From the NCBI GenBank assembly GCA_937925815.1, contig CALAMQ010000053.1:1-36301 (forward strand): a stretch of DNA of 36,301 bases, given 5' to 3'. Position 1 is the stretch's first letter. Every line of letters starts with the position of its first letter. This document shows positions 33,042 through 36,074 of this stretch, piece by piece. The notes below the pieces were generated by a model that had not been told where the DNA came from, did no database searches, and saw only the letters and a list, made by a program, of their open reading frames with translations. Source of the stretch: an uncultured Granulosicoccaceae bacterium. Its GTDB lineage: Bacteria > Pseudomonadota > Gammaproteobacteria > CALCKW01. The position numbers and the translations under genes are program-made.

Positions 33042-35117
33042 ATGAGCGATTCAACCGACCACCCCGCTGGACAAGCCTATTCCGCTAGCACCAGTGTGTC
33101 TGGAGATGAGGCACTTGTGGTGTTCACCCCGTCTGGGCGACGAGGGCGTTTCCCGATTGGCACCCCACTGCTCAAGGCAGCGCGGGCGCTCGGTGTGGAC
33201 ATAGATTCGGTTTGCGGTGGGCGCGGGCTGTGTGGCCGCTGCCAAGTGCTGTGCATGGAGGGCAGCTTTCCCAAGCACCGGATTGAGTCTTCAACTGCCA
33301 GCCTGTCAGCGTTCACTCAAACTGAAGTCCGCTTTGAGAAGGTCAAAAAGACCGCACTGGATGGGCGTCGATTGAGCTGCCAGACAACGCTGCTCGGTGA
33401 CGTGGTGATCGACGTGCCACCGGATAGCCAGGTGCACAAGCAAGTCATACGCAAAGACGCCGCTTATATCGACATAGAACTCGACCCTGTGGTGCGCTTG
33501 TATTATGTCGAGGTGCAAGAACCTGACATGCACGACCCGAGCGGCGACTTGCGCCGACTCAAAGCCGCACTCGAATTTGAATGGCGCCTCGAAAGCTTGA
33601 ATACAGACGCAAGCTTGCTCACGCACCTGCAAGGTGTTCTGCGCAAGGGCAACTGGCGTGTGACTGTTGCGGTATTCAAAGACGAAACAATCATGGGCGT
33701 GTGGCCAGGCTTTCGCGACAAAGCCTACGGCCTTGCAGTGGATGTGGGCAGTACCACCATTGCTGCTCACTTGTGCGATTTGGCCACCGGGGATGTCGTG
33801 AATTCTGCCGGCATCATGAACCCGCAAATTCGTTTTGGCGAAGACCTCATGAGCCGCGTGTCTTACGTGATGATGCACGAAGGCGGCGACCGCGACATGA
33901 CCTCGGTTGTGCGTGAATCTTTGAATACCTTGATCGAGGAAATTTGCAAAGGCACCGACGCGACCCCAGACACCATTTTGTCGCTGACTTTCGTTGCCAA
34001 CCCCGTCATGCACCACCTGCTGCTCGGCATCAACCCCATCGAACTCGGCGGCGCACCCTTTGCACTGGCGATCGACGAGGCCTTGAACTGCTTTGCGCGC
34101 GACCTTGAGCTGCGGGTACACAACAACGCTCGTGTTTACATGCTGCCTTGCGTTGCCGGACACGTGGGTGCCGACACCGCAGGTGTGATGCTGTCCGAAC
34201 AGCCAGACACTTTTGATGAAGTCAGCTTGCTCGTGGACGTCGGCACCAACGCCGAGATCGTGCTGGGTAATCGACAAAAATTGCTCGCGTGCTCGAGCCC
34301 GACCGGGCCTGCATTTGAAGGTGCCCAGATCAGCGGCGGACAACGCGCAGCACCGGGCGCTATCGAGCGCGTGCGCATCGACCGCGAGACGCTAGAACCG
34401 AAATTCTCGATTATCGGAGTCGAAGCGTGGTCAGATGACCCAAGTTTCGATGCAACCGTTGGCGAGACCGGGGTCACTGGCATCTGCGGCTCCGGCATTA
34501 TTGAAGTGATCGCCGAGATGTACCTCGCTGGCATCATCAATCAAGACGGCGTGATCGACGGCAGCTTGTCTGCAACCAACCCCAGAGTGTTTGAAGACGG
34601 GCGCACACACAGCTACCTGCTGTTTGACGGCGCAGTGCGAATCGTGATCACCCAGAACGACGTGCGCCAGATACAGCTCGCCAAAGCCGCGCTCTACGCA
34701 GGCGTCAAGCTGCTGATGGAGCACATGGGCGTGGACACCATTGACCGCATTCGACTGGCGGGCGCTTTTGGTTCGCACATTGACGTCAAATACGCGATGG
34801 TTCTCGGACTGATTCCCGATTGCGACCTCGATGAAGTACGCTCCACCGGCAACGCCGCCGGCTCCGGTGCGCGCATTGCACTGCTGGACCGCAAATCGCG
34901 TCACCGCGTCGAAGAAATGGTGCGCAACGTCGAGAAAATCGAAACGGCCGTCGAGCCGCGCTTCCAAGAACACTTTGTCAACGCCATGGCCTTCCCGAAC
35001 AAGGTAGACCCTTTCCCTAAGTTGCAGAACGCGGTGACCCTGCCACCGAAGAAAGCGGTTGAATTCGCAGTTGAAGGTCGCAGCCGGCGACGTCGCAAGC
35101 GGCCTGCAAAAGACTAA
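33042..35117 (+). CDS. Ferredoxin-ASKHA corrinoid activation protein (RamA/RACE-like, DUF4445)
   Basis: 691 aa. An N-terminal plant-type [2Fe-2S] ferredoxin domain (about 23-120) has C58, C64, C67 and C113 (CGGRGLCGRC ... SCQ). A linker and intermediate domain follow, then the ASKHA ATPase-like core from about 230 (GLAVDVGSTTIAAHL), with VDVGTNAEIVLGN, SGGQRAAPGAIERV, GICGSGIIEVIAEM and LAGAFGSHIDVKYA. Such proteins use ATP to return inactive cob(II)alamin to cob(I)alamin on corrinoid methyl carriers. The C-terminal tail GRSRRRRKRPAKD is highly basic. It is the last gene of the cluster, and its presence shows that the corrinoid protein here is meant to be reactivated. Confidence 0.93.
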   Translation: MSDSTDHPAGQAYSASTSVSGDEALVVFTPSGRRGRFPIGTPLLKAARALGVDIDSVCGGRGLCGRCQVLCMEGSFPKHRIESSTASLSAFTQTEVRFEKVKKTALDGRRLSCQTTLLGDVVIDVPPDSQVHKQVIRKDAAYIDIELDPVVRLYYVEVQEPDMHDPSGDLRRLKAALEFEWRLESLNTDASLLTHLQGVLRKGNWRVTVAVFKDETIMGVWPGFRDKAYGLAVDVGSTTIAAHLCDLATGDVVNSAGIMNPQIRFGEDLMSRVSYVMMHEGGDRDMTSVVRESLNTLIEEICKGTDATPDTILSLTFVANPVMHHLLLGINPIELGGAPFALAIDEALNCFARDLELRVHNNARVYMLPCVAGHVGADTAGVMLSEQPDTFDEVSLLVDVGTNAEIVLGNRQKLLACSSPTGPAFEGAQISGGQRAAPGAIERVRIDRETLEPKFSIIGVEAWSDDPSFDATVGETGVTGICGSGIIEVIAEMYLAGIINQDGVIDGSLSATNPRVFEDGRTHSYLLFDGAVRIVITQNDVRQIQLAKAALYAGVKLLMEHMGVDTIDRIRLAGAFGSHIDVKYAMVLGLIPDCDLDEVRSTGNAAGSGARIALLDRKSRHRVEEMVRNVEKIETAVEPRFQEHFVNAMAFPNKVDPFPKLQNAVTLPPKKAVEFAVEGRSRRRRKRPAKD

Positions 35118-35194
35118 GTCAGCCAGCGGCTCTGGCTAAACGGCTCCAGCGTGCTTGAAACTGGGCGCTGGCACACTTTTTCGGCATCGACCTT
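35118..35194. other. Spacer after the activase gene with weak hairpins
   Basis: AGCCAG (35121-35126) and CTGGCT (35132-35137) form a 6-bp stem just after the stop codon, and a second inverted repeat, CCAGCG with CGCTGG, lies a few bases on, followed by CACACTTTTT. Either could help terminate the activase transcript or a minus-strand transcript arriving from the repeats. No gene is seen. Confidence 0.35.
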
Positions 35195-35292
35195 TTGCGT
35201 GTGAGCGTTTCGCGTTGTGTAGCGATTGAGGTACCTGGCATTCTGTGCCGGTTGGGATATGGCGGACGTTGGGTAGGACGGGATATGGACTC

Positions 35293-35312
35293 AAAAACGC
35301 TAGGGCGTTTTC
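35293..35312 (-). other. Hairpin in repeat copy B
   Basis: Minus-strand GAAAACGC and GCGTTTTT enclose loop CCTA. It is the counterpart of the hairpin at 35487-35506 in copy A. The outermost pair is G-T on the minus strand, which RNA can form as G-U, but A-C on the plus strand. Confidence 0.6.
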
Positions 35313-35486
35313 TCACCCTTCGGGCGTCGCTCTGCTCCGTCCACCGAGCAGTGCTGGGTGTCGAACCCTCTTTCGGATTCGACACCCTCTCTCTTGTGAG
35401 ATTGTCGCGTTGTTTTGCGCTTGGGGGGCCCGGCATTCTGTGCGGGCTGGGATAATGGCGGAGGCTGGGTAGGTCGGGATTGATTT

Positions 35487-35506
35487 GGAAACGCTAAGGC
35501 GTTTCC
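35487..35506 (-). other. Hairpin in repeat copy A
   Basis: Minus-strand GGAAACGC and GCGTTTCC form a perfect 8-bp stem with loop CTTA. Compared with copy B, one pair has changed from A-T to G-C, which keeps the stem. Confidence 0.65.
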
Positions 35507-35650
35507 TCACCCTACGGGCGTCGCTTTGCTCCGTCCACCGAGCGGTGCTCGGTGTCGAACCCTCTTTCGGGTTCGAACCCTCTCTCTTTTCGGGTAAGTC
35601 GCGCTGATTAGCTTCTCAGGTGACGTTGAGAGATGCGCAGGTGTTGGGGA

Positions 35651-35743
35651 TGGCGGAGAGAGAGGGATTCGAACCCTCGATGGAGCTATAAACCCCATAC
35701 TCCCTTAGCAGGGGAGCGCCTTCAGCCACTCGGCCACCTCTCC
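35651..35743 (-). tRNA. tRNA-Ser (anticodon GCT)
   Basis: 93 nt on the minus strand, with encoded CCA. The acceptor arm begins GGAGAGG and ends CTCTCC-G-CCA. The D arm reads GCCGAGTGGCTGAAGGC, and the anticodon stem CTCCC/GGGAG holds loop CTGCTAA with anticodon GCT at 35709-35707, reading AGC and AGU codons. A long variable arm, as required for serine tRNAs, precedes the T arm GAGGGTTCGAATCCCTC. It lies downstream of csrA on the same strand, as in E. coli and Pseudomonas. Confidence 0.97.
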
Positions 35744-35864: not shown

Positions 35865-36074
35865 TCAACTTGCCTGTGAGATGTCACCCGGCGGTTGATC
35901 TGCTTCTAATTGTTCTTGCTTGATGCGGTCGTAGATTTCTTCGCGGTGAACTGACACTTCCTTGGGCGCGTTGACCCCAATTCTCACCTGATTTCCTTTC
36001 ACACCCAGCACGGTCACGGTGACTTCGTCCCCGATGACCAATGTCTCACCGACCCGCCTGGTCAGAATCAACAT
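35865..36074 (-). CDS. csrA: Carbon storage regulator CsrA/RsmA
   Basis: 69 aa. The sequence [16 protein letters not shown], then [21 protein letters not shown] and the RNA-contacting [10 protein letters not shown], is unmistakable; L4 and R44-type positions that bind GGA motifs are present. CsrA is a dimeric RNA-binding protein that represses or stabilises mRNAs by covering ribosome sites. E. coli CsrA is 61 aa; the extra C-terminal residues ([12 protein letters not shown]) are common in marine relatives. AAAGGAGAG lies upstream of the ATG as a strong ribosome site. tRNA-Ser(GCT) follows. Confidence 0.97.

Follow-up and report, generated by a model that had tools for sequence, protein, structure and literature searches.

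A two-unit array behind a tRNA-Ser(GCT) gene as a probable degenerate member of the RtT family

The DNA analysed here (36,301 nt from an uncultured Granulosicoccaceae bacterium; the whole stretch is hereafter called the window) carries a tandem array behind its tRNA-Ser(GCT) gene that we assign, on its sequence, to the RtT family (RF00391) as a divergent member, and not as an independent analogue of E. coli rtT. The array is probably a degenerate two-unit representative of a family in which units made of tRNA pieces would carry an insertable cassette, grow in tandem and be maintained mainly as structure-selected repeats. For decades, rtT has been an orphan RNA known from a single E. coli operon, and no description of a wider RtT family was found in the open-licence papers searched. 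If this reading holds, the family would extend several-fold beyond what the current Rfam model shows and would accompany many kinds of tRNA, with copies that track their own tRNA; the origin and function of rtT would become testable by comparison of close genomes that have or lack units, and sRNA annotations in tRNA tails may in fact mark repetitive elements.

The array behind tRNA-Ser(GCT) and its units

A tandem repeat of period 194 (2.0 copies, 35210-35588, score 565) was found by TRF in the tail of tRNA-Ser(GCT), and a second repeat search of the window returned a unit spacing of 194-195 in the same register. The array stands above chance because its tail recurs elsewhere in the genome by blastn, a covariance model matches it independently and its units have RNA folding z-scores of -4.9 and -5.1; the two copies of about 194 bp described in an earlier note on this DNA are therefore real. 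All four T-arm boxes listed in that note were recovered where it had placed them, but the first box of each unit (35586-35569 and 35393-35375) proved to be an antisense copy rather than a second sense T arm. The note had missed the extension of these antisense copies into the acceptor stem, as well as the copy of the tRNA 3' end that closes each unit (35480-35456 and 35286-35260). Both window units (194-195 nt, n = 2) consist of an inverted T arm with the acceptor 3' strand, a GGTTCGA half arm, a cassette and a 3'-end copy, as follows.

35651..35743, minus strand: tRNA-Ser(GCT) with CCA, T arm GAGGGTTCGAATCCCTC (ARAGORN; Rfam tRNA, 57 bits)
35462..35596, minus strand: RtT-type unit 1, as delimited by R1 (47.0 bits, E 3.6e-10)
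35569..35586, minus strand: unit 1 inverted box GAGAGAGGGTTCGAACCC, an antisense copy of the T arm and the acceptor 3' strand of the tRNA (sequence)
35555..35562, minus strand: unit 1 sense half T arm GGGTTCGA, predicted to form hairpin P2 with the inverted box (sequence, fold)
35481..35554, minus strand: unit 1 cassette, 74 nt, hairpins A-B-C-D (sequence)
35456..35480, minus strand: unit 1 tRNA 3'-end copy, degenerate, ATCCC-gacctacccagc-CTCCGCCA (sequence)
35270..35401, minus strand: RtT-type unit 2, as delimited by R1 (37.2 bits, E 1e-7)
35375..35393, minus strand: unit 2 inverted box GAGAGAGGGTGTCGAATCC (sequence, fold)
35361..35368, minus strand: unit 2 sense half T arm GGGTTCGA (sequence)
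35287..35360, minus strand: unit 2 cassette, 74 nt (sequence)
35260..35286, minus strand: unit 2 tRNA 3'-end copy, degenerate, AT..CCC...TCCGCCA (sequence)
35191..35259, minus strand: truncated start of a third unit's flank (77% identical to 35386-35454)
35865..36074, minus strand: 69-aa ORF upstream of tRNA-Ser(GCT) on the same strand (ORF list), which we take from its protein to be csrA
33042-35117, plus strand: long ORF that converges on the tRNA array and stops 73 bases from the array's truncated end; presumably a ferredoxin-domain corrinoid activation protein, by our own reading

The predicted partners of the inverted T-arm and acceptor copy are sense pieces of the same unit, namely the 3'-end copy (stem P1) and GGTTCGA (stem P2). 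In the fold of unit 2, GGGTTCGACACCC, made up of the half arm and the start of the cassette, is the partner of the inverted box (GGGTGTCGAATCC), and P1 is therefore weak in this unit. At Rfam gathering scores, the tRNA alone was matched in the window. Below the cut-off, the Rfam models Plastid-psbl-rps4 and Plastid-ycf2 matched the antisense of the tRNA (35654-35708, plus strand), and these two models look like antisense tRNA models.

Kinship with E. coli rtT

R1, a covariance model, was trained on 41 units that follow Ser, Arg, Lys, Gln, Glu and Pro tRNAs; all Tyr units and all loci of the source genome's genus were left out. R1 matched four E. coli tyrT units at 73-79.5 bits and the two window units at 47.0 and 37.2 bits. 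In E. coli, the order of the tyrT/tyrV tail is GGGGAAGGATGAGAAGCTTCGACCAAGGTTCGA, hairpins, GACCCGAAGGGCGA, then GAGTAATCC TTCCCCCACCACCA, and the annotated end of E. coli rttR is the CCA of the 3'-end copy (L082:1167). The Rfam RtT model gave no match in the window down to an E of 10, and its best score in the source genome was 24.3 bits, below the cut-off of 45; this miss reflects the reach of the current model, and the kinship rests on the R1 matches. The comparison with E. coli rtT drawn in the earlier note was borne out, as the anatomy and the covariance-model family are the same, but its view of an independent case behind a serine tRNA has to be given up, because R1 places the window units in the E. 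coli rtT family.

Features held in common with RtT of E. coli tyrT are the inverted T-arm box, GGTTCGA, hairpins A-B, GCCCGNAGGGYGA, hairpin D and AATCC plus the tRNA 3' end with CCA, as well as the tandem arrangement with the tRNA on the 5' side. The window differs in having a Ser tRNA where E. coli has Tyr, in an inverted box that keeps TTCGA in place of the usual TGAGA, in its degenerate 3'-end copies and in not being detected by the Rfam model. RtT RNAs of A. pleuropneumoniae have been seen on Northern blots; Arrc20 and Arrc21 of this family, likened here by description, are Northern-positive and also adjoin tRNA genes, but are reported upstream of tRNA-Asn and tRNA-Lys (PMC4986893). A tandem GA motif has been reported in RtT (PMC7657543), and for Salmonella rtT a 122-bp VNTR or a neighbouring size is listed, the table being ambiguous to read (PMC2658671).

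Distribution and match of units to their own tRNA

The pattern GGTTCGA-N22-50-GCCCGNAGGGYGA was present in 53 of 369 genomes of the class, and the reversed-pattern control gave 0 matches in the 369. Some pattern matches, for example those at L067, L083-L087 and L109, had neither hairpins nor a tRNA and were left out as chance. R1, the E-values of which are rough, matched 48 of 114 gammaproteobacterial genomes at E 1e-4 or better; the Rfam RtT model at its cut-off matched 7 of 114 drawn with the same settings. Within a phylum-wide sample, 46 of 199 genomes had R1 matches, 26 of the 46 lying outside the class. Among R1 matches with enough flank, 161 had a same-strand tRNA upstream and 41 did not, the latter being over-represented since dispersed copies were fetched on purpose. 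Units occurred with Ser, Arg, Lys, Tyr, Gln, Glu and Pro tRNAs and with one tmRNA, 76 nt downstream of that gene (L076). The longest array seen was in Photorhabdus akhurstii, with nine tandem pattern matches behind tRNA-Lys (L140).

Each unit was then scored against its own tRNA and against foreign isotypes for the 115 units that come first behind their tRNA (Ser 56, Arg 15, Tyr 14, Lys 14, Gln 7, Glu 5, Pro 3, tmRNA 1), many of which are from related species and do not count as 115 independent cases. The inverted box scored a median of 14 against its own tRNA, compared to foreign-isotype medians of 6 to 10 by group and to a median of 6 (95% at 9) for shuffled boxes. This effect was clear for Ser units (median 14 own, 7 foreign) and weak in the Gln (8 vs 6) and Glu (7 vs 6) groups; the inverted box of window unit 1 scored 17 against its own tRNA, with foreign tRNAs at about 7 for Ser units. 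The 3'-end copy scored 17-19 own versus 6-8.5 foreign in every tRNA group, and in the single tmRNA unit it was not distinct (7 vs 6). Inverted boxes and 3' copies thus track the sequence of their own tRNA.

Other tRNA tails of the source genome and its genus

The window tail recurs behind tRNA-Ser(GGA) and tRNA-Ser(TGA) on contigs C19 and C174 of the source genome, G000 (blastn, E down to 7.6e-57). In the tRNA-Ser(GGA) array (L011), the 3'-end copies match the tRNA at 18/18 and 17/18 nt, and on C19 the 74-nt cassettes also stand head to tail with a period of 74. The same module, with different stems, follows tRNA-Arg(CCG) and tRNA-Arg(ACG). Behind tRNA-Ala(GGC) (L047, G000:C41:7050-7950), about five tandem units of about 104 nt each close in a copy of the tRNA-Ala 3' end; these have uninterrupted T-arm copies and an inverted piece, CACCGCCGACCTC, and are without the four-hairpin cassette. 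No 3'-end copies were found in the remaining tRNA tails examined in this genome, for which at least 33 tRNAs are listed.

Partial tRNA-Ser genes with a cassette joined at the T loop were present at L011 2954-3092 (minus strand), L057 and L059. These chimeric genes lie 5' of intact tRNA-Ser genes in G000 and G001; the one at L059, in G002, has no intact tRNA in view. In the congener G003, no unit follows tRNA-Ser(GCT) or tRNA-Ser(GGA), and tRNA-Arg(ACG) stands directly behind tRNA-Ser(GCT). In the comparison with related genomes that the earlier note had proposed, repeats are thus missing behind tRNA-Ser(GCT) in G003, but the architecture of the boxes and the structure show strong conservation elsewhere.

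Conservation of a multi-hairpin structure

Across the alignment of 41 units, 80.9% of the cells in paired columns could pair, and double changes were found in 24 of 34 pairs. There were 214 such double-change cells, compared to 87 in shuffled alignments, and 0 of 500 shuffles reached the observed value. Sliding the partners by one column lowered pairing to 51% or less, although part of this excess is expected, as the structure was drawn by hand on the same alignment; the double changes are the stronger evidence for structure. About 26% of P1 cells were unpaired. The invariant columns were GGTTCGA, GCCCGNAGGG.GA and CCA. RNAalifold on a MAFFT alignment was also tried as the source of the structure and gave just 11 pairs because stem length varies, and the hand-built structure was used. 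By their folding z-scores (-4.9 and -5.1) and the covariation in the family, the window units share the conserved multi-hairpin fold.

Wobble pairs were counted in the model alignments, the automatic stem caller being unreliable. P2 had 41 GU versus 2 AC cells, an excess that is modest because the GGTTC 3' strand is fixed by the search motif and about four fifths GU would be expected from transitions alone, and P1 had 108 GU versus 79 AC cells. These counts weakly favour the sense strand, in P2 and less so in P1. Hairpins A and B showed no GU excess, unlike tRNA acceptor stems (36 GU vs 2 AC), and maintenance of these hairpins as palindromes at the DNA level is therefore possible.

The units are tandem and partly decayed, as would be expected from chance or from simple slippage within a GC-rich tail that has no conserved module. 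That account is exceedingly improbable, given the independent R1 matches to both E. coli rtT and the window units, and a chance origin was ruled out by the reversed-pattern control, the specificity for the own tRNA and the covariation shuffles.

Transcription and a possible regulatory role

In 64 of 115 units, a terminator-like hairpin lies between the tRNA and the unit, an observation that speaks against a single regulator co-transcribed with the tRNA in all cases. No such hairpin was found at this position in the window, in E. coli tyrT or in 13 of 14 tRNA-Tyr units, and the window array would accordingly be expected to be co-transcribed with its tRNA and may be cut after each CCA in the manner of a tRNA, as the annotated boundaries of E. 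coli rttR suggest.

The earlier note had proposed an RNA regulator or a decoy for tRNA-processing enzymes. According to such a reading, the tRNA primary transcript would be processed to release the units, whose inverted T-arm box or folded RNA would act in trans (on the stringent response, on tRNA-processing enzymes or as an sRNA sponge), which would keep the structure conserved. Stem covariation, the sense-strand preference of P2 wobble pairs, the lack of a terminator in the loci just named and the expression of RtT RNAs in E. coli and A. pleuropneumoniae, in the latter on Northern blots (PMC4986893), are consistent with this role. Nevertheless, we consider it rather doubtful in view of the terminator-like hairpins in front of so many units, the absence of units behind tRNA-Ser(GCT) and tRNA-Ser(GGA) in G003, the copies dispersed away from tRNAs in G124, G127, G376 and G390, and the fact that no common target or function is visible. 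Most likely, RtT units are repeats selected for their structure that make use of the T arms and 3' ends of tRNAs and are transcribed in some hosts; they would persist mainly in this capacity, with regulation as an occasional secondary use.

The cassette as a discrete module

G124 (one contig) contains a dispersed repeat of about 180 bp without the cassette, present in many copies (L226-L229, L243-L262), of which 14 aligned copies are without the cassette and 8 are with it. Empty copies read TTCTGA or TCCTGA followed directly by (A/G/C)ATCG, and filled copies have 72-73 nt (CAAAATCGCC...GGAGTCA) between TGA and ATCG. The joint is GA^ATC both in this repeat and in the tRNA setting, where the context is TTCGA^ATCC. 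The cassette is therefore a discrete block that is present or absent as a whole, through insertion or excision, as observed in this one genome. Filled and empty repeats have common flanks, so the copying of one filled repeat may explain most filled copies; a second type of right flank (L258 as against L227) could represent a second insertion or a recombination.

Taken with the unit anatomy, these observations suggest how an array may arise. Each unit spans the tail from the tRNA CCA to a repeated tRNA 3' end, and the 74-nt four-hairpin cassette, a repetitive module that can be present or absent as one block, sits at the point where the T loop would close (TTCGA^ATCC). Arrays would then grow by tandem duplication of whole units, so that each copy would end again in the 3' end of its own tRNA.

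The same junctions invite another explanation at the DNA level only, in which site-specific integrases that target T arms left partial tRNA copies behind and the hairpins were kept by recombination rather than selection. As in integrative elements at tRNA 3' ends, the 3'-end copies restore the tRNA end and the T-loop junction resembles attL/attR; the shared GA^ATC joint and the chimeric tRNA-Ser genes of G000, G001 and G002 also fit. We regard this as distinctly unlikely: no integrase gene is linked to the module (the genes of the window being known here from the ORF list), the stems covary in one fixed order across divergent genomes, and P2 wobble pairs favour the sense strand. RtT units also differ from integrative elements in their 74-nt module and inverted T-arm copy, and neither an integrase nor cargo was seen with them.

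It is possible, and we suggest it tentatively, that the RtT cassette is a new kind of gene-less miniature mobile element of 72-74 nt and four hairpins. Such an element would insert precisely at GA^ATC beside a hairpin, with a preference for T loops, and would recruit the 3' end of the host tRNA as a closing stem, E. coli rtT RNA being one of its products.

REP/BIME elements, whose palindromes of 20-40 nt have a conserved GTAG or CGTC tag at their foot, are likewise short palindromic repeats, and RtT copies are dispersed in G124, G127, G376 and G390. RtT differs in its conserved core (GCCCGNAGGGYGA plus GGTTCGA, with GTAG and CGTC absent among the invariant columns of the 41-unit alignment) and in that most of the copies found are tied to the 3' ends of tRNAs. 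An enterobacterial BIME-based cluster has been reported to resemble rtT (PMC2965389). Dispersed cassettes occur in G127, G376, G390 and G426 as well as in G124; in G127 (L232-L235), ACTTTCTTTGGTTACTTTCTTTGGC follows three of the four, and a close variant of it follows the fourth.
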